From Chloroflexota bacterium (GTDB lineage Bacteria; Chloroflexota; Anaerolineae; JAAEKA01): a stretch of DNA of 35,453 nt. Below the pieces are notes generated by a model. That model saw only the letters and a program-made list of their open reading frames with translations, had not been told where the DNA came from and ran no database searches. The stretch covers positions 1 through 35,453 of the forward strand of contig JAYELL010000065.1 in NCBI GenBank assembly GCA_034717495.1, given 5' to 3'. The position numbers and the translations under genes are program-made. Positions 5,474 through 35,453 of this stretch are shown here, piece by piece. Every line of letters starts with the position of its first letter. Positions within the stretch are counted from its first letter, which is position 1.

Positions 5474-8400
5474 CTACGGACTTACTTCGAACACCACAAC
5501 CTGGCAGCCCTGGCTGTCTGCCACGACCACCAGATCGCTGCCCCCTTCAGCGACCGGCACTGCCGCGATTCCTACCGGTTTGATCAACCCATCGCCAGCG
5601 CCGAACTGCCCTGACGGCGTGCCATCCGGGTTGAAAAGCAGGATCCGCCGGCCTTCCGGGTCGGTGCAATAAAGGCCGCCGGCCGGCCGCAGAGCCAGGT
5701 GCGGTCCCTCAATCGTGCTGGACGGGACCGGTCCACCCCACTTCTGAACCATGCCTCCGGCGGTCACCTGGGTAATCAAACCATTCTCCGCTTCGACAAA
5801 ATAGAGATCACCCCCGGACGAAGCAACGGCGTCCGTAGGTTGCCGGCTGGCGATCTCACTTTCCGGTCCACCAACTTGATTCAGCCTCTCTCCGGAAGCA
5901 TCCAGGCCAACAATACGCAAGCCGCCCGTGTCAGCAACCTCCAGTTGGCCCGCCAGATCGATGCCAACTCCCCTGGGCCGGTAGAATGCCTGCTCGGCAC
6001 CAAACGTTTCAACAAATTCCCCTCCGGGATCAAAGCGCAGAAGCCGCTGCCCAACCGCATCGAGGACAAGGATGCTGCCCGCCGGCTCAACAACCAGATC
6101 GACCGGTTCCTGAAACTGATCGACCCCTTCGCCCTGCCCGCCCCAGACCTTCTCAATCACACCTTGCTCACCAAGCACGACTATGCGAAAATTCCCGGTG
6201 TCGGCAACATAAACGCTGCCGTTGCTCAGGTCGACCGCCACACCCCGTGGCGATGAAAACTGGTTTTCACCGCTGCCACAGGAGCCGATACGCCACCGAA
6301 CCTTTGCCTCAAGCTGCGGCAAATCATTGGCCACCGGTCCAGCCACGACTCCAGTATCAGGTCGCGACGGTGCAATCTCCGTCACAGCGCCGGCGTCCGG
6401 TTCCAGCCCACCACCAGATCGTTCCACCGCTGGCAAGGGCGGCATGACCAGACCCTCGGGAATAGCCTCCGCCTCCAGCGGTATCAGGTATTCGGGAGTT
6501 ACCATGGCCTGCCCCTGCCCCGGTGGCTGCCACCAGAACTGCATTTCCCGGCTCCCTCCAACATCGTTGTAGCGTACCTCCAGATCATGAAACCCTTTAT
6601 CCAGGTGGATGCTACCCTGTCGTCCCTCGGCCCCATGAATGCCGCCATTGTCCACCACCAGCTGTCCATCGATGAAGACGAAGGAGCCGTCGTCCGACCG
6701 GGTGCCGAAGACATAGGTGCCGGTCTCGGGAATGGCGATCTTGCCATGCCACGCGATGCTGAAGGGCTCAGGCAAGGCATTGTTGGCCAGCACCAGTCGA
6801 TCGTTGCGCACCAGAACAGGTTGGCCCTGCCAATCGGCGTTCGCATAGTAGTAGCCGATCAGGCCATTGCCCCCCAATTCAAAGGTAAATAGCTGCCGGT
6901 CCGACAGGACCATAGCTTCAAATCCCGGACCTGTCCATGTCAACGCCAGTCTTCCAGGCTGCTCCCCGGAAGCCACTTCCAGCCGAATGGGATGGAATCC
7001 GGCCGGCAAGGTCACCGAAAGACTGCCGCTTCCACCTTCGGGCATCTCAAGGCGGGAGGAATTTCCAATCTGAAGACTGGCGGAATCGCCCTCAGACAGC
7101 AGGTCAAAAGTGTATTCGCCGTACTCAGGCACCAGCAAGGTGCCGCTCAAAACAGTGAAATAGGGGGGCTCGACCAGGGCATCGCCCATGTCGACGTCCA
7201 GGGTCGGCATGGTCTGGCGTACAATCGGGGCCTGGCTCGGTGGATAACCTGGGTAATAGCTGGCCATTATCCCCCTGGCAGCCACCAGATCAGCCCTGGG
7301 TACTCTGAAGCTTAGAAAAAGGGAATAGCCGTTTGGGCCCGCATGATGCTCTGGCCGGCCACCGGGATAGATCTGTTTCAGCAACTCCAGAGTTGGTTCG
7401 TCGATTGGGTCGAGGATGTAGACCAGATCCCCGCCAGAATCCTTCAGGAAGGGCACGTCGACAGTCGCATCCAGTCCCCGGTAGGGATGATCCCGCCCGA
7501 TGAACCTGACGGCGGAGTGATGCTCGTACTGTGGCGTAATCAAGACTGTAGTATCGGGCGACAAGGTCGTCAGATACCGGCCGATTGCCGATTCGTTGGG
7601 ACTGTACGCGGCAAGCACGTCAGGATTCAATGCCTGCGCGCTGAAGAAACTGCCGATGTTGAGAATCGAGACCAGGACCACCACCATGGCTGTAGCTCCC
7701 ATAAGTACTCGTTCTCCCAGCCCTTTCCACGTTTGCTGCCAACTGATAAAAAACTGATCCGTGACCAGGGCAACCTGAAGGAAGACCAGAGGAATCAGTC
7801 CGATGGTGCGACGGGCCGTGGGCGCTTCGTGAGATACAGACAACACGCCCAGGCTGGCAATGGCAATGAACCAGAGCATGAAAAGCACGGACACTGGCCG
7901 GCCCCGCAATGCATACCAGAGACTGTAGCCAAGCCCCAGCACGAACAAGACAGCCACCAGAGCGCCCAACATGGCAGCGCCAGGCAGGTTATTGAGCGGC
8001 GCTGGATCACCCTGCCAGTTGAACATGGTTAGCGTCTTGCGCAGATTCTCGAAAACCGGCTGAAAACTGCCCCGTTGTCCCACCTCAGACATGATGCTGA
8101 CGTGCTGAATGCGCCCGACGAAGACCTGCCAATTCTGCAGGATGTAAACCATCAACGGCAGCCCGGCAAGAACCGCGCCGCCACCCATGATTGCTATCCC
8201 CTGGACATCGGCAGCGACCCGTTGGCGCTCGCGAATCCAGCTTCGCACCAGCCAATACAGGAAGAACAGCGCCAAAAGGATGGGAACAACCCGGAAGGCC
8301 GTATAGGTGTTCATGCCGGCGGCCAGGCTGACGCCTGCCAGCGCCCAATCGCGACGGCGGCCACTGCGCAACCCGCGTAACATGAAAAAGACGATCAGTA

Positions 8401-9250
8401 TCATGAACAGGGGCTGCATGATCAACTCGTAGACGATACGGCTGAAGGTAACGTGCCAGCGGCTGGTTGCCAGCAAGGCGGCAGCGACCAGGGCCGCCTT
8501 TGGCCCATAAAGATCCCTTGCCAAAAAGTAGAGGGCCAAAACCGTCAGGACACCCACCGCCGCAGACACAAAACGCATCTGAGTCATGCCGACGCCAAAG
8601 ACCTGGAAGCTCAGAGCGATCAGATAGGTGAAAAAAGTAGCCTGCCCCTCATTGGTTTCGGCATAGGGAAGGTACGGGGAGCCGCTCATCCAACGTAATG
8701 CATCCAGTCCATTGTTGCATTCATCGGACTGGCAACCACTGGGGTGGAGGTCAAGCTGGTAGAGGCGCACGGCAGCGGCGAGCATCAGGATCAGTATCAG
8801 CAGAATCGCTTCCCAGTGCCGGCCTATCCAGGCCCCGAACCCAGTTTCCTGCTCACTTTCTCCGTCTTCTTCCTCCTGGTTGCCGCCCCCTTGCTCTCGA
8901 TCTTCTGCTTCTTCAAAAAAAGTCCCGGCAACAAATAGTATCGTCGCCACCGGCCACAGAAGCAGACCGGCCCTGCTTCCCAGGTCGAGCCAGAGCAATA
9001 ACAGCGAAATAATCCCAAGCCCAAGCCCAACCAGGCTGAGGAGCCAACCCTGGCGACGCCAGGGAAGCCGGCGCCAGGTCAGGCTCGTGCGAAAAGGTCT
9101 GGGAGCCTGGGCGTTCCAGACGAATAACACGAGCGCCCCGATGAAGAGAATCAGCGCGTCCCGCGGGATGCCAGGATTATCCCCGGTGAGGGTAAATTGG
9201 GCCCACAGACCGAGACCCAATGCCAGGAAAAGCCCCAGTAAACGGTTCAT
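5474..9250 (-). CDS. GT39-like membrane glycosyltransferase with two PA14 domains and a C-terminal NHL propeller
   Basis: A 1258-residue protein. Residues 1 to about 560 are rich in hydrophobic helices. An acidic pair sits in a periplasmic-loop position typical of dolichyl-phosphate-mannose/ArnT-type GT39 enzymes (QSDECNNGLDALRW, near residue 175). Such enzymes transfer a sugar from a polyprenyl-phosphate donor outside the membrane. Residues ~660-790 form a PA14-like module (LLVPEYGEYTFDLLSEGDSA). Residues ~795-910 form a second, canonical one (DDGSFVFIDGQLVVDNGG, then FWWQPPG). After a low-complexity linker, residues ~985-1258 hold NHL-type blades (FSSPRGVAVDLSNGSVYVAD, FYRPRGVGIDLAGQLEVAD). 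PA14 and NHL modules commonly bind glycans or proteins, so the tail may hold the acceptor; this is inference. The gene overlaps its upstream paralogue by ATGA, so translation is probably coupled. Donor and acceptor are unknown. Confidence 0.85.
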   Translation of the reverse strand: MNRLLGLFLALGLGLWAQFTLTGDNPGIPRDALILFIGALVLFVWNAQAPRPFRTSLTWRRLPWRRQGWLLSLVGLGLGIISLLLLWLDLGSRAGLLLWPVATILFVAGTFFEEAEDREQGGGNQEEEDGESEQETGFGAWIGRHWEAILLILILMLAAAVRLYQLDLHPSGCQSDECNNGLDALRWMSGSPYLPYAETNEGQATFFTYLIALSFQVFGVGMTQMRFVSAAVGVLTVLALYFLARDLYGPKAALVAAALLATSRWHVTFSRIVYELIMQPLFMILIVFFMLRGLRSGRRRDWALAGVSLAAGMNTYTAFRVVPILLALFFLYWLVRSWIRERQRVAADVQGIAIMGGGAVLAGLPLMVYILQNWQVFVGRIQHVSIMSEVGQRGSFQPVFENLRKTLTMFNWQGDPAPLNNLPGAAMLGALVAVLFVLGLGYSLWYALRGRPVSVLFMLWFIAIASLGVLSVSHEAPTARRTIGLIPLVFLQVALVTDQFFISWQQTWKGLGERVLMGATAMVVVLVSILNIGSFFSAQALNPDVLAAYSPNESAIGRYLTTLSPDTTVLITPQYEHHSAVRFIGRDHPYRGLDATVDVPFLKDSGGDLVYILDPIDEPTLELLKQIYPGGRPEHHAGPNGYSLFLSFRVPRADLVAARGIMASYYPGYPPSQAPIVRQTMPTLDVDMGDALVEPPYFTVLSGTLLVPEYGEYTFDLLSEGDSASLQIGNSSRLEMPEGGSGSLSVTLPAGFHPIRLEVASGEQPGRLALTWTGPGFEAMVLSDRQLFTFELGGNGLIGYYYANADWQGQPVLVRNDRLVLANNALPEPFSIAWHGKIAIPETGTYVFGTRSDDGSFVFIDGQLVVDNGGIHGAEGRQGSIHLDKGFHDLEVRYNDVGGSREMQFWWQPPGQGQAMVTPEYLIPLEAEAIPEGLVMPPLPAVERSGGGLEPDAGAVTEIAPSRPDTGVVAGPVANDLPQLEAKVRWRIGSCGSGENQFSSPRGVAVDLSNGSVYVADTGNFRIVVLGEQGVIEKVWGGQGEGVDQFQEPVDLVVEPAGSILVLDAVGQRLLRFDPGGEFVETFGAEQAFYRPRGVGIDLAGQLEVADTGGLRIVGLDASGERLNQVGGPESEIASRQPTDAVASSGGDLYFVEAENGLITQVTAGGMVQKWGGPVPSSTIEGPHLALRPAGGLYCTDPEGRRILLFNPDGTPSGQFGAGDGLIKPVGIAAVPVAEGGSDLVVVADSQGCQVVVFEVSP

Positions 9251-12210
9251 TGTTGTGCGGGTACCATGGCCCCGGGCGGCACCGGTTTGAGCGCTTCACC
9301 GGGAGGTTGCCACCAGAACTCCAATGCCTTGCCTCCCCCCCGCTGGAAGTAGTCGATGCGAATTGCATGGGGGCCAGCCGTCAAGGGCACAGCCACGTCG
9401 ATCATGTTGACGGTGTCGGGTGTCACTCCCTCAGCCACGATTTTTTCGTCCAGCCAGAGACGCACGCCGTCATCTGCGCGCAGTTGCAGGCGATAGCTTC
9501 CCTCCTGCGTTGCTATGAGTGTGCCCTGCCAACGCACGGAAAATGGCGCGTTCCATGGTTCATCCTCCGGCCAGGCAAACAACAGGACTGGATCAACCCG
9601 GCTGAAGACAGGCTCTCCCTCCCACAACTCGCCGCGATAGGTGCTCGACTGCAAGCCCTGCTCAGGGGGCACAGCCCGGAAAAAGAGATTGGGTGGTACC
9701 GGTCCCGACCCCTGTTTTGGCGCCGTCCAGCTAAGGAGAATATCGATGTCGCTGCCAGGTTCAATCTGCCGGATCTCTATACTGTGCAGCCCCTTGCCCA
9801 GGAAACGAGGTTCGGACCAGAGCTGGCCATCGAGAAACAGCAGGCCCGGACCGCTGATCTGGAAAGCATATCCCCCATAATCGGGAATCTTCAACGAACC
9901 GGACCAGGAAGCTGTGGCAGAAGCCGTCGCCTGCCCGGCCAGATCAGCCGGCCAGCGAAACTGCGGAGCGCCCTGGTAGGGTCCCGTCACGGGCGATTGA
10001 TCGCTGTCCAGCGTATACGCCGCCTGCAGGCCTTGCAGGGCCAAAATCTCGTCGCCGGGCACGGTAACGCTCAGATACAGGGGCTGCCCGCCCGGCCCCT
10101 CGACCAGTTCGAATCGGGCGCCAGGATAGGTGGCTCGAAACAACTCGGGCACATCCCGATAATAGGTATCGAGCAGGAAGAGCGCATCTTGCCCGAAGGG
10201 ATCGCTCAGCGGCAGATCGATGGCTGGCTCAGCAAGTTGGTAGGCCGGTTCCCGCAAGCCGCCGCCACCCCGGTCCGGGGACCGGTAGCTAAGAAACTGC
10301 AGTGGCGAGAAGTTATACAGCCGTGGAGACAGGTACAGGCTATGGTCATCCATCTTGCCGGCAACTTCGGCCGCCACGGCGGTTTCGACCGGAGAAAAGG
10401 CCTGCCACACCCTGCCGTCGCTGGCTTGCACGCTGAAAAACAAACGGGCGTTTACGACTCCTGCCCAGAGCAGCAGCGCGCCCATCAACACAGCAGGCAC
10501 TGCGCGGGCCCAGCGAGACCAGGAGGAGCCCACCATGCTCCGCAGACCCCAGCCAAAAACATCGACGCTGCGAACTGCGGCCACCGCTGCCAGGAGCACG
10601 ACCGCGCCAACAACCGGAAGCGTTCGATAGGCCTGAGGGGCTTCGTCCAGACGGGTCAGGATGCCACCGAGCAGGGGAACGAAGAGCCATAGAATCAGCA
10701 GGGTGTAGCGGTGACCACCGCTGATTCCCGGCACTGCAGTCCGCTTTTCAGCGTCACTGACAGGGCAGGGTCGAAAAACCTGATAGGCAGCGAAACCCAA
10801 TCCAAGGATCATCAATGCCCCCGTAACTGGATCCAACATAGGCTCGCCCGGCAGATTGTGGCGGGGATTGAGATCACCTGAAACGTGGAACATTTCCAGG
10901 TGACGGAAGAGACTTTCCTGCAGCGGTTGCAGGCTGATCTCCCTGGGAAAGCCAAAGACACTTAACACGGTTGCTGCAGCGCCCGGCGTCGGGCCGCCCT
11001 GCTCCTGGAAAAACGTCGTCATGTCGTGCAGGATGCTCACCTGCTGGCTGCGGTTATTGAAGGTAAACGGGTCCTGGACATAGGTCATGAGCAAGGGACC
11101 AAAGGCAACCAGATATAGAATCGCAGACAGGGCCAGACCTCGCCAATTGCGCCGCAGGAAATCCCGCTCAAACAACGCGCGGTAGATCAGATACAGGACC
11201 AGGACCAAGACCACCAGGCGGGATGCCAGGTAGGTATAGTGCCCCAGTCCCAGGATGAGACCCGCCAGCGCGTAATCGCTGGCTCGTCGATCGCGAACCG
11301 CTCTCAAGAGAAAAAAGAGCGCAGCGATCATAAACAGTAACGGCGCGACCTCGTTCCACCCCCAGCGGCTCATAGTCATATGCCAGCGGTTGGTTGCCAG
11401 CAGGAAGGTTGCCGCAAAAGCAGCAGGGATACCGAACATGAGCCGCGCCAGGGGATATAGGGCTGCCACGCTAAGAACCGACGGGATGACCGACGCTGCC
11501 TTGAGCGCGACCAGACTGGTTCCCAGAACCCTGAACAGGGCAACCAGGTAGTAGGCATACATGGTCGGGGTTTCGAACCAGCCGGTACCAAAGGGACTAT
11601 CCTGCCGGCCCTCCATGATCTGAAGCGCGTCCAGCGCAGCATTGGTTTCATCGATGAAGATACCGGGCGGCATATCGTTGAGCCGGTAGATCCGCAGGAT
11701 GAGGGCAAGAGCCACCAGCAACAGCAACCCACCCACTTCCAGCCAGTTGATCTTTCGGTCTGCCGGCGCCTTCGCGCGCCATGGCGCCAGCGTGCCAGAT
11801 CCGAGCGCGCCAAACAGAAAGCTGCCACCCAGCAACAGCGCCAGGGCCAGCAGCCACGTCCACCGGAAAAGCTGGTGATTGCCGGTTGTGGACAGACCGA
11901 TCATCGTTGCCAGCGCCATAACTATCCCGGCGCCGACCAGAACCAGAGCCCAGCCAACACGCCGCGCTGGTTGAAAGCAGGCCGGACGGGCCGCGGGAAG
12001 CACTTCCCCCTCACGCCGCTGGAATCCAGCGAAGGCAAAGGCCGCTGTAATGGCCGCAAGCAGAAACCATAGCCAACCGCTGCTATTGTGGCCGGGCGGA
12101 TAGAGCAGGTTAGCGCCTCGTATGGCCAGGATGAACGCGGCCAGAAGGGCAATGGCCGCTGTAAGTGGCTGGGGTAGGCCTTTCGAAGAAGACCGCGTCG
12201 GCTCGCTCAT
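9247..12210 (-). CDS. GT39-like membrane glycosyltransferase with two PA14 domains
   Basis: A 987-residue paralogue of the downstream gene. N-terminal hydrophobic helices cover about residues 20-620, with the GT39-like acidic loop IFIDETNAALDALQIMEG near residue 187. Two C-terminal PA14-like modules follow: ~727-835 (LKIPDYGGYAFQISGPGLLF) and ~852-970 (GSYRLQLRADDGVRLWLDEK, then FWWQPPG). It lacks the NHL propeller of its partner. It is first in a two-gene operon; its TGA overlaps the next ATG by four bases. The start at 12210 has no Shine-Dalgarno, and a good promoter -10 lies only seven bases upstream, so the message is probably leaderless. A polyprenyl-phosphate sugar transferase role at the outer face of the membrane is inferred from the family; the substrate cannot be told. 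Confidence 0.86.
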   Translation of the reverse strand: MSEPTRSSSKGLPQPLTAAIALLAAFILAIRGANLLYPPGHNSSGWLWFLLAAITAAFAFAGFQRREGEVLPAARPACFQPARRVGWALVLVGAGIVMALATMIGLSTTGNHQLFRWTWLLALALLLGGSFLFGALGSGTLAPWRAKAPADRKINWLEVGGLLLLVALALILRIYRLNDMPPGIFIDETNAALDALQIMEGRQDSPFGTGWFETPTMYAYYLVALFRVLGTSLVALKAASVIPSVLSVAALYPLARLMFGIPAAFAATFLLATNRWHMTMSRWGWNEVAPLLFMIAALFFLLRAVRDRRASDYALAGLILGLGHYTYLASRLVVLVLVLYLIYRALFERDFLRRNWRGLALSAILYLVAFGPLLMTYVQDPFTFNNRSQQVSILHDMTTFFQEQGGPTPGAAATVLSVFGFPREISLQPLQESLFRHLEMFHVSGDLNPRHNLPGEPMLDPVTGALMILGLGFAAYQVFRPCPVSDAEKRTAVPGISGGHRYTLLILWLFVPLLGGILTRLDEAPQAYRTLPVVGAVVLLAAVAAVRSVDVFGWGLRSMVGSSWSRWARAVPAVLMGALLLWAGVVNARLFFSVQASDGRVWQAFSPVETAVAAEVAGKMDDHSLYLSPRLYNFSPLQFLSYRSPDRGGGGLREPAYQLAEPAIDLPLSDPFGQDALFLLDTYYRDVPELFRATYPGARFELVEGPGGQPLYLSVTVPGDEILALQGLQAAYTLDSDQSPVTGPYQGAPQFRWPADLAGQATASATASWSGSLKIPDYGGYAFQISGPGLLFLDGQLWSEPRFLGKGLHSIEIRQIEPGSDIDILLSWTAPKQGSGPVPPNLFFRAVPPEQGLQSSTYRGELWEGEPVFSRVDPVLLFAWPEDEPWNAPFSVRWQGTLIATQEGSYRLQLRADDGVRLWLDEKIVAEGVTPDTVNMIDVAVPLTAGPHAIRIDYFQRGGGKALEFWWQPPGEALKPVPPGAMVPAQQ

Positions 12211-17681: not shown

Positions 17682-19646
17682 CTATCCGATGGCCAGCATG
17701 CGGTCAACCGCGGTGAAGGCCCTGGCCCGAATCTCCTCCGGCACGATAGTCTCATACTGCATGTACTTCAGCGCGTCCCGGGTCATCTCCAGGGTAATCT
17801 GGTTCATGTGAGGGCAACGCACACTGCAGAGCCGAACCATCTCCTTGGCCGGATTGGCAGCAGCGATATTGTCCCCCATGGAACACTCTGTCAGCAACAG
17901 GTAGCGTGAAGCATCCACCTGCTCCACGTAACGGATCAAGGCGTTGGTGCTGCCGCTGAAATCGGATGCCTCGACCACCTCAGGAGAACATTCCGGATGG
18001 GCCAGCACAACCACATCGGGGAACTGCGAGCGTACCATCTCGACATCCGCCACGGTGAACTGCTCGTGTACCTCGCAGCGAGCTGTCCAGCCGATCATTT
18101 GATAGTCAAGCTCAGTATCCAGGGCCATCATGCCGCTGGGCAGTTTTTTCGGGAAGACGATCTGCTTGCCCGTGTCCCGGGCCACGTTGCGGGCCAGGTA
18201 CTCGTCGGGCAGGAAAATGACCATGTCGCCGCCCAGGGAGTCCACCACGGCAGCCGCGTTGCTGGAGGTGCAGCAGATATCGCACTCCGCCTTGACGTCA
18301 GCATAGGTGTTGACGTAGGTCACCACAGGCACACCCGGAAAGCGGGCCTTGAGAGCACGAACATCCTCGGCCGTGATGCCTTCGGCCAGAGAACAGCCAG
18401 CCTTCAGGGAAGGAATCAACACCGTGCGTGTCGGGTTGAGAATCTTGGCCGTCTCAGCCATGAACTTGACGCCGCAGAAGAGGATCACATCCTTATCGGT
18501 CATGGCAGCCTTGCGACTTAGATCCAGCGAGTCGCCCACGAAATCGGGAACCGAGTGGAACAGGGCAGGTTCCATGTAGTTGTGCCCCAGGATCACTGCA
18601 TTGCGCTCAACCTTGAGTTGATTGATCTCAAAGGCCAGTTCCGCCGCGACCTGCAATTCGAAATCGGGTGTGTATTCCCCGATCCGCTCCTGTAATTCCT
18701 CGTAGATTTCCTCAACGCTCATATCTGTGCGATCACGAGCAGTAAGTGTCGATGACATAGATCCGCTCCCTTTTTGAGAATCACTCACCTTAATCGTTTC
18801 CTCGATCTCCAGGCTTATGTCGAGTGCCTTCACCGAATGGGTGAGGGCTCCCGAGGAAATATAGTCAACACCGGTCCGGGCGATCGCCGCCACCGTGTCC
18901 AGGTTGACGTTTCCCGATGCTTCCAACGGCACCCGGCCACCGGCCATGGCTACTGCCTGCCGCATCTGTGCCAGGCTCATGTTATCGACCAGAATGCGAT
19001 CGACGTCCAGATCCAGGACCTGCTGCAACTGCTCCAGGGTCGTGACCTCGACCTCGATCGCCCGCCCGCGATCGTCGGTTTCCCGGACGCGCCGCACTGC
19101 TTCGGCCACACTCCCGACCGCGGCGATGTGGTTGTCCTTGATCATCGCCATGTCGTAGAGACCGAAACGATGATTCTCACCACCGCCCAGGCGAACCGCC
19201 CACTTATCGAAAACTCGTAGCCCTGGCGCTGTCTTGCGCGTATCCAGAATGATTGCATGGCTGCCTTCGACGGCGTCCACAAAACGGCGGGTCATCGTCG
19301 CAATGCCCGACATGCGTTGCAGATAGTTCAAAGCAAGCCGCTCGCCGGCCAATATGGCGCGCCCGGGACCTACGATGGACGCGATCACCTGCCGGTCGGC
19401 CACCCGGTCGCCATCCTGCATATGCCGCGTCACCGTCACCCGCGGATCGAGCTGGCGGAAGACCTCCTCCACCACATCCAGGCCGGCGACGATTCCTGCC
19501 TGCTTGGCAAGCAACTCCCCGGACAGGACCAGATCCTCCGGGATAGTGCTCAAGGTCGTAACGTCGCCGTCGCCCATATCCTCATCGAGCGCGTACTCGA
19601 TCGCCTGTTTTGCCTCTGCCGAAACCTGGCCGTTATTACCTTTCAT
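17682..19646 (-). CDS. nadC-nadA: Bifunctional fusion: NadC quinolinate phosphoribosyltransferase - NadA quinolinate synthase
   Basis: A single 654-residue frame. Residues ~1-285 are a complete NadC (YALDEDMGDGDVTTL near the start; RMSGIATMTRRFVDAV; DTRKTAPGLR; EVEVTTLEQL; ASGNVNLDTVAAIARTGVD). Residues ~297-654 are a complete NadA (LGHNYMEPALFHSV, DFVGDSLDLSRKAA, FCGVKFMAETAKILNP, DICCTSSNA, and the C-terminal RCPHMNQITLE, with the [4Fe-4S] cysteines). The product makes quinolinate from iminoaspartate and dihydroxyacetone phosphate, then converts it with PRPP to nicotinate mononucleotide. The frame extends to 19736, but ATG 19646 follows AAAGAGGAAT. The linker is short and polar. NadA keeps its own ATG (18758) and Shine-Dalgarno, so a free NadA may also be made. 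A one-base indel at the junction, natural or a sequencing error, could have created the fusion. Confidence 0.9.
   Translation of the reverse strand: MKGNNGQVSAEAKQAIEYALDEDMGDGDVTTLSTIPEDLVLSGELLAKQAGIVAGLDVVEEVFRQLDPRVTVTRHMQDGDRVADRQVIASIVGPGRAILAGERLALNYLQRMSGIATMTRRFVDAVEGSHAIILDTRKTAPGLRVFDKWAVRLGGGENHRFGLYDMAMIKDNHIAAVGSVAEAVRRVRETDDRGRAIEVEVTTLEQLQQVLDLDVDRILVDNMSLAQMRQAVAMAGGRVPLEASGNVNLDTVAAIARTGVDYISSGALTHSVKALDISLEIEETIKVSDSQKGSGSMSSTLTARDRTDMSVEEIYEELQERIGEYTPDFELQVAAELAFEINQLKVERNAVILGHNYMEPALFHSVPDFVGDSLDLSRKAAMTDKDVILFCGVKFMAETAKILNPTRTVLIPSLKAGCSLAEGITAEDVRALKARFPGVPVVTYVNTYADVKAECDICCTSSNAAAVVDSLGGDMVIFLPDEYLARNVARDTGKQIVFPKKLPSGMMALDTELDYQMIGWTARCEVHEQFTVADVEMVRSQFPDVVVLAHPECSPEVVEASDFSGSTNALIRYVEQVDASRYLLLTECSMGDNIAAANPAKEMVRLCSVRCPHMNQITLEMTRDALKYMQYETIVPEEIRARAFTAVDRMLAIG
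18756..18775 (-). promoter_or_regulatory. Internal ribosome binding site and start of the NadA part
   Basis: Within the fused frame the minus strand reads AAAAAGGGAGCGGATCTATG. GGGAG is eight bases before an in-frame ATG (18758) that is the expected NadA start. It could give a separate ~358-residue NadA. Confidence 0.55.
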
Positions 19647-19699
19647 ATTCCTCTTTCCAGTCCACTGTAGACTCCAATCATCTTCTCCCTTCGCCCAAC

Positions 19700-20395
19700 T
19701 CAGTATGGTGGCTCTGCTGGCCCGAGATAACCACACATCCCCATCCTCGGTGAGTTCGCCAACGGCACTGGTTCCCCATACTCCTCGTGTGGGTGCTCCT
19801 TTACATGCTCATCTACATGCTCATCACACAACGTCCCCCACACGCCCGATTCGTACAGGCACTCTATGCACAACCATGACGCCGCTTGCCCACACTCGAT
19901 GCATTCTGCCTCCGGTGGATCATTCCGCGCCATCAACATGATCGGATGCACCGTCAACGGCTTGCCTTCCCGTACCTCCACCCCTTTGACCAGCGTCTCC
20001 GATGAGGTCCCAAAGTCATAGATGTGCGTCAACTCCACGCCAGGCTCAAAGACCCGCTCCACCTGCCTGCCCTTGGCCATCTCCTCGCCTCGCCAACCAC
20101 CAACGGAAAACTGGCTCAAATGCCCACAGCATTCCAGCCAGATGGCTCGCAGGTAGCGATCCAAATCCTCCAGCGCCGCCGAACCGTTCATCTCCAGGTG
20201 CAACCAGAAGTTCCCTCGCCAGGCGTCCTGCACCTGCAAATGATACAACCGTTGCTCTTTGCCAGCCTGTTGATTGGCCTTTTCAATGGCTTTTTGGCGC
20301 TCCGAGCAGGCGCGTAGATGCCTTGTCAGACCGCCTCGCGTCATTTCGCGCCCACAGAAGACGCACTTCCCGCGCGTTTGCTTTCTCCGTGCCAT
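19700..20395 (-). CDS. Zinc-finger protein with pRiA4b ORF3-like domain
   Basis: A 231-residue protein. An N-terminal zinc-finger-like motif reads CVFCGREMTRGGLTRHLRAC. Residues ~50-150 resemble the plasmid pRiA4b ORF-3-like domain (LHLEMNGSAALEDLDRYLR; HIYDFGTSSETLVKGVEV). Residues ~160-200 hold a second metal-binding cluster (CIECGQAASWLCIECL, LCDEH). The DNA-binding or RNA-binding role is unproven; the family is common in mobile and environmental genomes. The frame opens at 20650, but ATG 20395 is preferred because AAGGAGG lies about ten bases before it and upstream residues look noncoding. It ends 54 bp before nadC-nadA on the same strand. Confidence 0.72.
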   Translation of the reverse strand: MARRKQTRGKCVFCGREMTRGGLTRHLRACSERQKAIEKANQQAGKEQRLYHLQVQDAWRGNFWLHLEMNGSAALEDLDRYLRAIWLECCGHLSQFSVGGWRGEEMAKGRQVERVFEPGVELTHIYDFGTSSETLVKGVEVREGKPLTVHPIMLMARNDPPEAECIECGQAASWLCIECLYESGVWGTLCDEHVDEHVKEHPHEEYGEPVPLANSPRMGMCGYLGPAEPPY

Positions 20396-29297: not shown

Positions 29298-29401
29298 ACA
29301 TTATTGCCAACATCGACGCCAAAAGAGAGGCAGGTATCAAGCCACCCCGCGCCCGCTTATCCCTTTGCCACTCCCACCCATAATACCTGGGAGGATTCAT
29401 C

Positions 29402-32400
29402 ATGCGCGAAATGACTCAAGCGCCATCCATTGCCAATATCGTCCTACCCCCAACGGTGAATCAGTTCGCCCGGCTGGAGATCACCCTGGACGTCACCACC
29501 CAGGCCACCGATCTCTACCTGCCGTACGACGCGTCCCCTCCTGCCGGTCAGGCCGCCGCTACCGGCATCACAGTCGATGCCATTTTCACCGATCCGGATA
29601 GCAACACCTATATCTTGCCGGCCTTCTACCACCAGTCCTTCCAGACCCAGCAGGGCCATGGCCGCGACTGGATTTACCCCCTGGACACCTATGCCTGGCA
29701 CGTGCGCTTTGCGCCTGCCCTGCCCGGCACCTGGACAATGGAACTCTCGGCTACCGACGGGGGCGGCACCGTCCAGGAAGGGCCTCTCTCCTTTGATGTC
29801 CAGCCTTCCGCCAGCCGCGGTTTCGTCCGCGAGTCTCAGACCGACCCCCGCTATTTCGAATACGGCGATGGCTCCCCCTTCAAGGGCCTGGGCTACAACT
29901 TCGACTACAAGACCCTGGATTGGAACGATCCCTCCCAGGCCACCATGGAGTGCCAGACCTTCGCCAACTTCGGCATGGACCTGGCCCGCTACTGGCTGTC
30001 GGAGCCTCCCCTGTTCGGCGGTCTGATCAACCCCCTGCGCCAGTGGGACGCTGATCACACCTATGATTCGTTCGCTGGGTTGACGGTGTCTGTAGCCGAT
30101 GCGGGTCGGGAAGTATCCTGGCGGCTCAACAGTGAGCGGGGCAGCTTCAAGACCCGTTTCCTGGCCCTGGGCGCCCTCACCGAGAGCCTGCCCGTTAAAC
30201 CAGGCACCCAGTACAGAATCAGCCTGCGCCTGCACATCCCGGAGAACTTGCTGCAGGACGATCTGGCTCAGGATTTTGGTTTCGTGGTCAAACAGGATAC
30301 CCCCATTCTCGATCCCTCCCTGGTCGTCGATCCCACCCATGGGACTCCGTTGGGCGGTTACGTTACGGGAACAGGAGCAAGCTGGATCGACTATGCAGCG
30401 GAATACACCACACCGGCCAATCAATATTTCCTTCCCTACCTCTACTTTGCCCTGGTCAACTGCGTTGCCGATGATAAGACCGCCTATTTCGACGACGTGC
30501 AGATTCACGAGCTGTCAGGCGGTGTTCCCGTTGGCCCCAACCTGCTGGACAAGGGCCTGGCCGACCAGCATCTCTACGTCAGCCAGCGGGGCGCCCATAC
30601 CGTCGACCAGTTCGTCGAGGCCGCGGAAGGAGCGGGCATCACCTTGAAGCTTGTCCTGTTGGAGAAAAACGATCCCATCTTTGGCCACATGGATCGAACC
30701 ACCGGCCTGCTGGACGCGGCATTTTCTGTGGACAATTTCTACGGCGGCGAAGACCAGAGCATCAACCGCTGCCGCTGGCTGCAGCAGGCCTGGTGGCGCT
30801 ACTGCCAGGCCCGCTGGGGCTACTCTGCCGCCGTCCATTCCTGGGAGTTGCTCAACGAGGGAGGAATCAATAACCCGCGCCATGAGAACCTGGCCCAGAT
30901 GATGGGCAGCTTCATGGCCCAGTACGAGCCCAACAGCCATCCCTGCACCACCTCCTTCTGGTCAGGCTTCGACCATGCCTTCTGGACAAATCCGGCCTTT
31001 CCCGACATGGCCTACGCCGACTGGCACAAATATATCGAGCCCACCGACTCCTATTGGGGCGACACGGCCCGGGCCCACATCGACGGAGTCGATGGCCTGC
31101 AGCCGGTGGACAAACCGGTGGTGCGGGGAGAGACCATGGTGTGGGACGACAATGATCCGCACTCCTACGAACCTCGCCTGTTGGAAGACACCGCCGGCAC
31201 CTGGCTGCGCCACTGGCTCTGGTCCCAGCTGCACAGCAAACAGCTCTACGAACTCTGGTGGTACCACCGGAATGTCATCTCGCAGACCGCTGAAGCGGGC
31301 GTCGATCAACGTCCCCACATCCTGGCCTTTTCCCGTTTCCTGGAGGGCATCCCCCTCAACAACGGGACCTATCAGGATCTGGGCGTGTCAGCTCAGGACC
31401 TCCTGGTGGTCGGCCAGTGGGACACCGCCAGCGGCGACGGCCATCTCTGGGTACGGGCCGATGGCGCGGTCCCCTACACCTGGCTCAACGTGGTCAACAG
31501 CGAGACGATAACGCCTGTCAGCGAGGATATCACCATCCCTGGCCTCTTTCCCGACCGGGCATACACGGTGCAGAACATCAGCACGGCCGATGGTGTGACC
31601 CTGCTCGATGAGGTCGGGCTTTTCAGCGATGCCCAGGGCAATCTGCTCGTCCGTGGTGCAGATTTTCCCTCGCTGCTCGCTTTGCTCGGCGATACCGCCT
31701 TCAAATTCCAGGCCCAGCCCGAGTCCCAGCTGGCGCCCATCCTGCTGCACGCTACCTTCACCGAAACGGGCGTCGCCCTTTCCGCCACCGATCTGGCCGG
31801 CAACGAACCGGTCTGTTCCCTCCGCCGCTTCTCCCGCAGCGACGGCAGCGCAACCACCCTGGCCGATGCCGCGCCAACAACCTACGATCATATCTTGAAA
31901 ACCTGGATGTACCGGATCGACAATGCAGATCTCGGACGTTTCCAGTACGTCGCCCGCTTCCATACCGATTATGCCGACGCCGACCAGGCTGATGTCTGGG
32001 CATTGGGAGCCATCTATGATGCCCCCTTGAGCGCCGTTGGTGCCCAGAGCCTCTCCACAGCCGCCCTCGCCCAGTTCGTCACCCATGACACGGGAGAAAG
32101 CTCGGCAGCCAGCGCTTCGGTGGCCGAGCTCTCCAAGGCATCGGGATTCAGCACCTTCGACCCATCGACCGAGCAAGTGATTGCCGATGTGCGCAGGATC
32201 AACGGCGATCCCATCGACGATTCGGTTTCCTATGACCAGCGGGCCATCCTTTATCTTCAGCAGCTCAAATTGGAAACTGACGCCAGCGGAGAAGGTGCCC
32301 TCGATGCCTTCAATCACAGTCCGGATGGGATGGGCATGCGCAACGAGGGCAATATCGGCATGTACAACGAGGGGGTGTCTCAAGGCCAATACAACTGGGG

Positions 32401-33421
32401 ACGCGGTACCCAGGGAGCGGGACAGTACAACCGTGGCAGTACCCAGGGGCAGATGAACGAGGCTTCCGAAGGCTACGGCCAGGAAAACCGGGGAACAGCA
32501 GCGGGACAACGCAACATTGGCAGCGCTTTCGGCCAGACCAACATCGGTACGGCTGCAGGGCAACAGAACAGCGCTTCTGCAGGGCCGGGCCAGGAAAACA
32601 GGAGCTCATCAGGCCCAGGGCAGCTCAACATCGGCACCGGTCAGGGCCTGTTGAACCAGGCCTCGGCAGGCTCAGGGCAAGTGAACCAGGGAACTGTCAA
32701 GGATGTGGATGGCTATGATCCCGACATCGTGGCCGGTTTCTGGGACCGCTTGACCAGCACCTTGACCTCGGCCGGCAGCATCGGGAAATTGCTTGCCGAC
32801 ACCCTGGACGCCACCCTCTCCAGCCGCAGCAGTCATAGCGCCGACGACGTGATCACCGGTCTGCCGACCGCCGCGGATACCGATACGCAGCTCAGCACTA
32901 CCCATGGTGCCGGTTCCTGGGAAGCAGGGACACCGCTTACCTCGGTCGGAGAGATCGATCCGGTCAGTGAGTTCTGGAAACCTTTTGACCGAACTTCCGT
33001 CGTGGTGACTGCCAAAAACACAGCTGGACTGCTGACGATCCGCCAGGCAATCAACTTCCGCGCAACACTGAATCGCCTTCAGATTCCCGCCGACTGGGAT
33101 CAACTCATATGGACGGTGTTCGCTGCCGATGGCACCAGCCCGCTGGTGCAAGCCAGCGTGAGCGAACGAGCCAAATCGTTGGATGGCCTTCAGGTGATAA
33201 CGGGAAAGGCAGCAAGCAAAGGTGGCCTGGTCACCGGCGACGGATCGCTGATCGTCGATGCCCGGGTGGGCACGGTTCGGCTGGGCCTGAGCCACAAGGC
33301 TACGGCTCTCATGCCCCAGGTCGAGGGGGTTCCCTGGACCCTTGAGGCCGTGCGCGACCAGGATGAAATCGCACGGGTCACCGAAGGTTTCTGCGACATC
33401 CTGCCGTTGGACGGTGGGTGA
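29402..33421 (+). CDS. Mosaic protein: DUF5060, glycoside-hydrolase-like barrel with CBM insert, GQ-x-N repeats and phage-structure-like C-terminus
   Basis: A 1339-residue protein; GGGAGG precedes ATG 29402. Residues ~1-135 are a DUF5060-like beta-sandwich (WIYPLDTYAWHVRFAPALPG). Residues ~140-640 look like a glycoside-hydrolase barrel (GSPFKGLGYNFDYKTLDW) with candidate acid Glu486 in SWELLNEGG and nucleophile Glu577 in VVRGETMVWDD. A CBM-like sandwich (~225-385) is inserted (ISLRLHIPENLLQDDL; TAYFDDVQIHEL). Residues ~979-1100 are about 13 short units, each with x-N-x-G/A/S and usually G-Q. Residues ~1105-1165 (SAGSIGKLLADTLDATLSSR; THGAGSWE) and the final domain resemble linker and tail modules of phage structural proteins. 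No signal peptide or membrane helix is seen. A polysaccharide-acting enzyme displayed on a fibre-like stalk is an inference; substrate and location are unknown. Confidence 0.75.
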   Translation: MREMTQAPSIANIVLPPTVNQFARLEITLDVTTQATDLYLPYDASPPAGQAAATGITVDAIFTDPDSNTYILPAFYHQSFQTQQGHGRDWIYPLDTYAWHVRFAPALPGTWTMELSATDGGGTVQEGPLSFDVQPSASRGFVRESQTDPRYFEYGDGSPFKGLGYNFDYKTLDWNDPSQATMECQTFANFGMDLARYWLSEPPLFGGLINPLRQWDADHTYDSFAGLTVSVADAGREVSWRLNSERGSFKTRFLALGALTESLPVKPGTQYRISLRLHIPENLLQDDLAQDFGFVVKQDTPILDPSLVVDPTHGTPLGGYVTGTGASWIDYAAEYTTPANQYFLPYLYFALVNCVADDKTAYFDDVQIHELSGGVPVGPNLLDKGLADQHLYVSQRGAHTVDQFVEAAEGAGITLKLVLLEKNDPIFGHMDRTTGLLDAAFSVDNFYGGEDQSINRCRWLQQAWWRYCQARWGYSAAVHSWELLNEGGINNPRHENLAQMMGSFMAQYEPNSHPCTTSFWSGFDHAFWTNPAFPDMAYADWHKYIEPTDSYWGDTARAHIDGVDGLQPVDKPVVRGETMVWDDNDPHSYEPRLLEDTAGTWLRHWLWSQLHSKQLYELWWYHRNVISQTAEAGVDQRPHILAFSRFLEGIPLNNGTYQDLGVSAQDLLVVGQWDTASGDGHLWVRADGAVPYTWLNVVNSETITPVSEDITIPGLFPDRAYTVQNISTADGVTLLDEVGLFSDAQGNLLVRGADFPSLLALLGDTAFKFQAQPESQLAPILLHATFTETGVALSATDLAGNEPVCSLRRFSRSDGSATTLADAAPTTYDHILKTWMYRIDNADLGRFQYVARFHTDYADADQADVWALGAIYDAPLSAVGAQSLSTAALAQFVTHDTGESSAASASVAELSKASGFSTFDPSTEQVIADVRRINGDPIDDSVSYDQRAILYLQQLKLETDASGEGALDAFNHSPDGMGMRNEGNIGMYNEGVSQGQYNWGRGTQGAGQYNRGSTQGQMNEASEGYGQENRGTAAGQRNIGSAFGQTNIGTAAGQQNSASAGPGQENRSSSGPGQLNIGTGQGLLNQASAGSGQVNQGTVKDVDGYDPDIVAGFWDRLTSTLTSAGSIGKLLADTLDATLSSRSSHSADDVITGLPTAADTDTQLSTTHGAGSWEAGTPLTSVGEIDPVSEFWKPFDRTSVVVTAKNTAGLLTIRQAINFRATLNRLQIPADWDQLIWTVFAADGTSPLVQASVSERAKSLDGLQVITGKAASKGGLVTGDGSLIVDARVGTVRLGLSHKATALMPQVEGVPWTLEAVRDQDEIARVTEGFCDILPLDGG

Positions 33422-33748
33422 TTGAGGGGCTTACAGCATCAACATCGACAACTTTTTGTCGATAACGCACTCATTGAAAACGCCGTACTGGTCAAATTGC
33501 CCCGCTGGGGCTTCATCTTCCGAGCGCAGTCTCGGAACGATGCATAGTACCTTTCGAGTCAGATTCTTGCCCAGTGTGCAAGAAAATTATCCGCGAACCC
33601 AACAAAGATGTACCGCAGCAATGTCCCGAGCTTGTCGAGGGGCACTATCCTGCCCACTCCGCCCACCTCGTGCATTCGTGACCCCATTCGTGGACAGCCC
33701 AGAACACCGCCGTCCCCACATTGCCAGGCTCTCATCTCTCGGTGGCCT

Positions 33749-33796
33749 TACCTAGCTAGCTCACGCACCGTCTGCTGACGTCTCGCACCGCTTGCT
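33749..33796. repeat. 48-bp direct repeat, copy 1
   Basis: Begins TACCTAGCTAGCTCACGCAC and ends CGCACCGCTTGCT. An identical copy lies at 33912-33959, 163 bases on. The sequence between and after is a degenerate mix of CGCCTGCTGGCG and GCGTCTCCGCGTC words. Confidence 0.9.
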
Positions 33797-33911
33797 GCCT
33801 CCCGGCACGCCTGCTGGCGTAGCTCACGCCACATCGGCAGACGATGCCTGCTGGCGGCGTCTCCGCGTCCCCCATTCCCCGCGTCTCCGCGTCGCCCCAT
33901 CCCCGCGTCCC

Positions 33912-33959
33912 TACCTAGCTAGCTCACGCACCGTCTGCTGACGTCTCGCACCGCTTGCT
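33912..33959. repeat. 48-bp direct repeat, copy 2
   Basis: Same 48 bases as copy 1 at 33749-33796. Followed by a diverged GCGTCACGGTACGCCTGCTG segment corresponding to the CCTCCCGGCACGCCTGCTGG after copy 1, so the true duplication is longer but decayed. Confidence 0.9.
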
Positions 33960-34023
33960 AGCGTCACGGTACGCCTGCTGGCGGCGTCGCCCCATTCCCC
34001 ACGCGTCTCCGCCCTCCTGAAAC

Positions 34024-34464
34024 CTATCTCCGTTCAAGCACACGCGTATCAAAGATCTTGTCGTGCCACGCCTCGCCGTCGTGATCGAAGGCTGCCCAGA
34101 TATAGCCGAGACCAAAGATCAACCCGCTGATCCAGTAACCGACGGTACCTCGCAATCCCGCCCGCAAAAAAGACAGCGGTTCCTCATTCCGACGCACAAC
34201 CTGAATGCCGAGGGCCTTCATCCCGAGCGATTGGCCATCTTTGCTCCAGAAATACCCGAAGTAAAGGAACTGTACCAGCCACAGAACAGCCGCCATAAGC
34301 AACGCCAGACCGCCGACCAGCAGGGCCAATAGATCGCTATCCGTGCCGGAGTATAAGCCGGTAACCAGTCCCAGCAGGCCTGCCAGAACGCCAGCAGCAA
34401 GTCCGACCCCTATCCAATCGATGAACCATGCCGAAAACCTCGATCCAAATCTTGCTGTTTCCAT
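34024..34464 (-). CDS. RDD family membrane protein (copy 2)
   Basis: A 146-residue RDD-family protein. The defining residues appear in RFSAWFIDWIGVGLAAGVLA (R and D of the first helix) and the later D of the pattern. Hydrophobic helices lie at about residues 15-40, 50-80 and 105-125. A conserved SKDGQSLGMKALGIQVVRR loop and a DGEAWHDKIFDTRVL C-terminus follow. Role unknown for most RDD proteins; some are proposed ion exchangers or transporters. ATG 34464 follows GGAGG eight bases upstream. It is a tandem paralogue of the gene ending at 34518. Confidence 0.87.
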   Translation of the reverse strand: METARFGSRFSAWFIDWIGVGLAAGVLAGLLGLVTGLYSGTDSDLLALLVGGLALLMAAVLWLVQFLYFGYFWSKDGQSLGMKALGIQVVRRNEEPLSFLRAGLRGTVGYWISGLIFGLGYIWAAFDHDGEAWHDKIFDTRVLERR

Positions 34465-34961: not shown

Positions 34962-35134
34962 AAACACTTCTCCGTTCATTATGATTCGTAACTGTACAGG
35001 CCTAGCAGAAATATCTCGCACCCGTCATTGCGAACCCTGATTGACTGACAAAAGTCCATGAGGCACATCTTTCCAACAAAGGCAAGATAGCCAATACTCT
35101 ACCTCATCACTACGCCATGAGAAGGAGAGTAACG

Positions 35135-35287
35135 ATGGAAGACACGCCTCGCCTGTATGATACCTCGTTTCAAGTATTGCGGCAACATGGAAAATGGTCG
35201 GATGTGCGTCATGCCAAGGTCCTGGGCCTGGATGATTGCGGGATTGGTCCAGGCTGGAACAGCGAGTTTGACGGCTTGGATACCCTT
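35135..35287 (+). pseudogene. Transposase N-terminal fragment with frameshift
   Basis: ATG 35135, after AAGGAGAGTAACG, opens RLYDTSFQVLRQHGKWSDVR, like the N-terminus of a DDE transposase of the IS4/IS701 kind. At about 35220 the homology passes to the +1 frame (WMIAGLVQAGTASLTAWIPF), consistent with one extra G in CTGGGCCTGG. It then runs into tandem-repeat sequence after some 50 residues. No inverted repeat is visible. A decayed insertion sequence is the simplest reading. Confidence 0.6.
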
Positions 35288-35453
35288 CGCGCCTTCGTGG
35301 TCCAAACCCTCCCCGCGCCTTCGTGGTCCAAACCCTCCCTTCGTTCCCCTCGCTCTTCGCGTCCTTCGTTCCCTTCGCGCTTCGCGTCCTTCGCGACCCT
35401 TCGCGCCTTCGTGGTCCAAACCCTCCCTTCGTTCCCCTCGCTCTTCGCGTCCT
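35288..35453. repeat. Tandem and interspersed low-complexity repeat at the window end
   Basis: Repeats of CGCGCCTTCGTGGTCCAAAC start near 35289, 35316 and 35403, followed by CCTCCCTTCGTTCCCCTCGC and CTCTTCGCGTCCTTCG words. It continues off the right edge. A minus-strand open frame over it (35099-35419) is repeat-derived and not called. Confidence 0.85.

Follow-up and report, generated by a model that had tools for sequence, protein, structure and literature searches.

Gene and protein layout

The window, by which we mean the whole stretch of 35,453 nucleotides analysed, is a complete contig (G000:C65) of a 5.0 Mb Chloroflexota genome in 120 contigs. It carries a stand-alone gene for a protein of 1339 residues, the features of which are collected in Table 1. 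The open reading frame reported by the first-pass annotation is confirmed by reading the frame, by its ATG start codon and by the GGGAGG sequence ahead of it. An in-frame stop lies 7 codons upstream of the ATG, so that no signal peptide is hidden upstream, and no hydrophobic export segment opens the protein, in agreement with the earlier observation. The gene is equipped with a ribosome site and is flanked by hairpins. Residues ~1-770 make up a DUF5060 and clan GH-A-type hydrolase, and residues 774-1339 a single phage-fibre module of 566 residues, ordered as lead-in QLKLE..EGALD..N, 13 GQxNxG repeats, W-LTSxLTxxGSxGK helical motif, HGAGSW and C-terminal domain. The proposed mosaic of hydrolase, repeat and phage neck- or fibre-type modules, an enzyme fused to a fibre, is upheld by this layout.

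Table 1. Positions of the features of the hydrolase-fibre gene (window coordinates) and of its paralogue
Feature	Residues	Position	Strand	Basis or remark
Shine-Dalgarno-like GGGAGG		29389..29394	+	7 nt ahead of ATG (sequence read)
Whole gene		29402..33421	+	1339 aa, stand-alone, without signal peptide
DUF5060 beta-sandwich	53-116	29558..29749	+	Pfam PF16586 5.5e-06; PDB 9gmj
Clan GH-A type hydrolase domain	about 137-650	29810..31351	+	alignment with four secreted relatives; weak profile match 3wh9
Barrel insert	about 221-372	30062..30517	+	same position in L004, L005, L006; CBM-like by appearance only
E486, NE motif, predicted acid/base	486	30857..30859	+	invariant in 5/5 aligned
E577, RGE motif, predicted nucleophile	577	31130..31132	+	invariant in 5/5 aligned
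Phage-fibre module	774-1339	31721..33418	+	common to paralogue on G000:C53, 57% identity
Domain at the place of the phage-fibre N-terminal domain	about 779-880	31736..32041	+	position only
GFSTFDPS...ADVRxING segment	915-934	32144..32203	+	similar string GYSTFDSTSDQVIV ahead of the same motif in viral L068, by eye
Lead-in QLKLE..EGALD..N	950-971	32249..32314	+	same in viral L149, L147; looser in L150, L151
13 repeats GQxNxGxxx	978-1098	32333..32695	+	repeat also present in four different viral fibres
Helical fibre motif FWDRLTSTLTSAGSIGKLLADTLDATLSSRSSHSADDV	1108-1150	32723..32851	+	found in 136 viral contigs
DTQLSTTHGAGSW	1161-1173	32882..32920	+	motif recurs in G017, in a region of phage-like genes
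C-terminal domain	1180-1339	32939..33418	+	37% between copies, most divergent; weak profile match to phage fibres L116, L150
Terminator-like hairpin 3' of gene		33499..33511	+	consensus only
P0002, 1454 residues		L003:5101-9465	-	PQQ/BamB-like propeller head and fibre module

The hydrolase head

The N-terminal 770 residues correspond to the mature portion of a hydrolase that is normally secreted, without its signal peptide. The Pfam score of the DUF5060 domain (27.0 bits) falls 0.2 bit under the cut-off of 27.2; PDB entry 9gmj matches the protein at 5e-10, and DUF5060 entries of the PDB reach 6e-44 with a profile that includes four relatives. The hydrolase domain is 29-39% identical to these four secreted relatives in the alignment, and the GH5-type mannanase 3wh9 gives a weak profile match to the head (E 0.001). 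Two glutamates of the NE and RGE kind are expected of an active clan GH-A enzyme, and E486 and E577 would be this catalytic pair, with roles predicted from knowledge of the clan. Together, the Pfam and PDB matches and the two invariant glutamates bear out the assignment to a DUF5060/glycoside hydrolase type: the domain is present, and with it a barrel bearing both putative catalytic residues.

Matches to the protein occur in 13 of 60 related genomes, 12 of them covering parts of residues 4-736 and one (G017) the fibre motif only. The DUF5060 domain, the GH-A type barrel and the NE and RGE glutamates are common to the secreted DUF5060 glycoside hydrolases (L004-L006, L011; PDB 9gmj, 9gpc). The barrel insert, earlier described as an inserted CBM, is placed alike in L004-L006, so that its position is conserved in three relatives; it is CBM-like by appearance only, and no Pfam family recognised the segment. 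A second insert ahead of RGE, present in three of the four relatives, is absent here. Unlike the 1339-residue protein, all four genomic relatives have an export signal and lack the fibre module. A search of viral contigs for an enzyme of the DUF5060 hydrolase family found none.

The fibre module and its viral relatives

The C-terminal 566 residues are a module of phage-fibre type. Exactly 13 G[QML]xN units follow one another at spacings of 8-12 residues, as the first-pass annotation had estimated, and the stricter G[QM]xN pattern occurs 12 times against a mean of 0.5 (maximum 5) in 20000 shuffles of the same segment. Scanning viral contigs with a degenerate DNA pattern for three repeats, verified on the window, brought to light four different viral fibres with the GQxN repeat (L147, L149/L152, L150 and L151). 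All four carry the lead-in Q[LQV]K[LIM]...AL[DH]..N directly before the repeat, a feature absent from the search pattern. One further match to the pattern, L148, is a simple tandem repeat and was rejected. The lead-in and the GQxNxG units constitute a fibre repeat without a matching Pfam or PHROGs model in the proteins tested; PHROGs gave no match for either the 1339-residue protein (P0001) or its paralogue P0002.

A profile of the helical motif matched 136 viral contigs, the best segments being 50-73% identical to the window protein. The phage-like character of the C-terminal region is thereby substantiated in viral contigs for the lead-in, the repeat and the helical motif; the C-terminal domain itself gives a weak profile match. 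The first domain of the module (residues 779-880) displayed no significant relation to the phage fibre N-terminal domain in hhalign and hmmsearch comparisons. Queries with the whole module or with P0002 returned no match in viral contigs and phage records, searches of isolated phages with the helical motif gave chance-level matches only, and about 800 genomes of the class and phylum (two partly overlapping sets) contained no full-length module, only short phage-type motif matches. G085 gave a weak match, with no GQxN repeat in the ORFs inspected. AlphaFold2 monomer runs on the module alone and on the repeat with four viral rows gave mean pLDDT values of 34 and 38, too low for a usable model.

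Among the uncultured tailed-phage fibres from IMG/VR, the four of GQxN type thus share the lead-in and GQxNxG repeat with the chimera, and those of the 136 contigs share the W-LTSxLTxxGSxGK motif. The GQxN fibres measure 443-939 residues and are not preceded by a DUF5060 hydrolase; the phage relatives seen open with an N-terminal domain of their own, ahead of which there is no enzyme. Where neighbours could be identified, the viral fibre genes lie among capsid, connector and tail genes, whereas the chimera genes stand alone. The L149 fibre adjoins a Mu-like gpT major capsid gene (7.5e-23) and a head decoration gene, and the L147 fibre lies with a head-tail connector (4.9e-93). The L149 fibre gene shares its start with an overlapping LamG gene, just as P0002 does with the LamG gene P0003. 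G283 encodes a relative of P0003 (E 1e-4 to 3e-3 when compared directly) about 10 nt before a motif-bearing fibre gene, near a tail-tube-like gene. The viral fibre L056 (L056:245-4438, 1398 residues) combines GH130 and LamG domains behind the helical motif in one protein; enzyme-like domains therefore occur on such fibres in phages. The same motif is found in L057 (1395 residues). Glycosyltransferase-like genes, recognised by eye, immediately precede the GQxN fibre, or the LamG gene that goes with it, at L150:874-2994 and L149:4532-5698, and the viral GQxN fibre at L147:7738-10554 opens with a signal-peptide-like segment, MKRQWLFLLVAAGTLALWTDAALA, which is odd for a virion protein.

A second chimera with a different head

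A search of the same genome revealed one other gene with residues 774-1336 of the protein, on contig C53. Its product, P0002, begins with a PQQ/BamB-like propeller (PF13360 1.8e-13), after which comes a stretch of helical appearance, judged by eye. The genome thus holds a second chimera, with the same module behind another enzyme-like head; both genes are stand-alone, and both are absent at the corresponding sites of sister genomes. Comparison of the two modules gives dN of about 0.36 and dN/dS of about 0.23, with dS (about 1.57) saturating. Constraint between the copies is highest in the first domain and the helical motif and lowest in the C-terminal domain; the domain at residues 779-880 is the most conserved, with dN/dS of about 0.08 at saturated dS. 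Codon use of both chimera genes is host-like (GC3).

The four DUF5060 relatives inspected start with a hydrophobic export segment, and the P0002 head homologues L133 and L134 are likewise exported proteins. Maximum hydropathy is 2.4-3.0 in the inspected relatives of both heads versus 0.75-0.83 in the two chimeras. The start of P0002 coincides with the mature start of L133 (WTMAGANPQRTSWTP versus MTWTTAFANNQRTSYTP). Given exported relatives for both, two different enzyme-like heads have lost the export signal and gained the same tail.

Chromosomal setting

The neighbours of the 1339-residue gene (LUD, RDD, NAD synthesis, aconitase) are ordinary chromosomal genes, and those on C53 are, by eye, cytochrome c peroxidase-like, antiporter and formate dehydrogenase-like genes. 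TypA (named by eye) comes after the LUD gene in the sister genomes G002 and G003, with no fibre there; around the peroxidase gene, G002 and G005 have different neighbours, among them neither fibre nor LamG. No capsid, portal, terminase or tail genes, such as a prophage would have, were seen among the neighbours of either chimera, and a genome-wide search for two families, Phage_portal (PF04860) and Terminase_6N (PF03237), gave no match. The genome has the sequence module of a GQxN-type virion fibre, without a virion-gene neighbourhood.

Origin and possible use of the chimeras

The first-pass annotation had raised the possibility of a contractile-injection-like system, and the genome does contain a complete-looking eCIS at G000:C34:2787-27896 (L045, L046), with sheath, gp19 tube, AAA+, gp25 and baseplate J genes. 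A 1358-residue protein in this region, with two DUF4157-like stretches recognised by eye, is a possible cargo. The last gene of the locus encodes a DUF6519 fibre (PF20129 8.9e-76), and DUF6519 is the N-terminal fibre anchor eBAP5 in the catalogue of eCIS fibres (PMC12923769). The chimeras resemble eCIS tail fibres (Afp13/Pvc13, eBAP1-5) in having a phage-derived shaft encoded in a bacterial chromosome. They differ in lying on C65 and C53, outside the eCIS operon, and in lacking the eBAP5 anchor, the one of the five types compared: Pfam found no DUF6519 in P0001 or P0002, the N-terminus of which is occupied by enzyme domains. Our literature search on eCIS or phage tails in Chloroflexi found nothing. 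As a DUF6519 fibre already belongs to the eCIS and this anchor is missing from the chimeras, the contractile-injection proposal is not supported, and it is very unlikely that the 1339-residue protein is a tail fibre or cargo of this system. Still more improbable is an enzyme of the ordinary secreted or surface kind whose linker is a beta-solenoid and which has no phage link; the head is indeed of ordinary secreted type, but the linker and helical motif occur in virion-type fibre proteins and the signal peptide is missing, both of which contradict it.

We incline, at slightly better than even chances, to the view that the protein joins a host-type polysaccharide-degrading enzyme to the fibre of a phage virion in one chimera, which came in with a phage and stayed. 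The occurrence of the module in viral contigs, the shared LamG gene order, the enzyme-bearing fibre L056, the exported relatives of both heads, the retention of both glutamates, the dN/dS of about 0.23 and the empty sites in sister genomes argue for it. Against it stand the lack of virion genes nearby, the viral relatives without an enzyme in front, the failure to find an enzyme of this family in viral contigs and the non-significant first domain. The fibre might instead have been domesticated without a particle, as a multimeric, sticky polysaccharide-degrading enzyme for the bacterium's own use, released when some cells lyse or displayed. Two intact copies with different heads, purifying selection, host-like GC3, own ribosome site and flanking hairpins, and the missing phage genes (none nearby, no PF04860 or PF03237 match) would suit such a role. 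We nevertheless consider it unlikely, if the strongest competitor: an export signal is absent, selection may have acted while the genes were in phages, and the roughly 800 class and phylum genomes searched show no closely related module, hence there is no sign of long vertical use. Alternatively, the genes could be inert remnants, all that is left intact of two decayed prophages, or of a single duplicated one, without present function. Their restriction to a single lineage, with sister-genome sites lacking them, and the same want of other phage genes fit this account. We judge it improbable, since frames of 1339 and 1454 codons are stop-free, both catalytic glutamates are kept, dN/dS is about 0.23 and no decayed phage genes were recognised beside either gene.

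Under the favoured chimera reading, the same phage fibre stands behind different signal-stripped enzymes, and phage parts therefore seem to have been recombined with host enzymes. The module may trimerise into a fibre shaft through the GQxN repeats, with the C-terminal domain as its variable distal end. The fibre would carry the hydrolase in the manner of a virion-mounted depolymerase, and the predicted activity would be directed at surface polysaccharide close to the cell that the fibre binds. Synthesised in the cytoplasm, the protein would be released through lysis or on a particle, and not through Sec. Having arrived with a phage, the genes would have been retained, whether for use or as the last intact prophage pieces. 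No particle is known for the chimeras, as no virion genes lie near either and Phage_portal and Terminase_6N are unmatched. Virion-associated depolymerases and tailspikes carry a polysaccharide-degrading domain on a virion fibre and have no Sec signal. The 1339-residue protein likewise joins a fibre to a predicted polysaccharide-degrading domain without a Sec signal; unlike them, it has no phage around its gene, and its enzyme is N-terminal and not part of a trimeric beta-helix. A bolder and rather doubtful idea is that a domesticated fibre serves as a general carrier, onto the front of which host enzymes are swapped minus their export signals, acting outside the cell after lysis as particle-free or hitch-hiking fibres.

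The novelty lies in how the features combine: chimeras of fibre and enzyme in stand-alone genes, a single module with two heads, lost signal peptides and a repeat unmatched by Pfam or PHROGs in the proteins tested. One module behind two unrelated, signal-stripped, enzyme-like heads records, in the proteins themselves, an exchange between phage fibres and secreted enzymes of the host. It also supplies a natural design for attaching enzymes to fibres.

Other features of the window

At 33750-34030 and 35025-35453 lie repeated DNA 3' of the gene (CCTACCTAGCTAGCTCACGCACCGTCTGCTGACGTCTCGCACCGC twice) and repetitive DNA at the contig end, which probably explains why the contig stops there. Two adjacent, overlapping genes on the minus strand (5474-9250 and 9247-12210) each encode a PMT_2 glycosyltransferase with PA14 toward the C-terminus, the first also with NHL repeats. 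At 17682-19736, on the same strand, NadC (quinolinate phosphoribosyltransferase) and NadA are fused in one ORF of 684 residues, and a match in the sister-genome locus L177 spans nearly all of the fusion.
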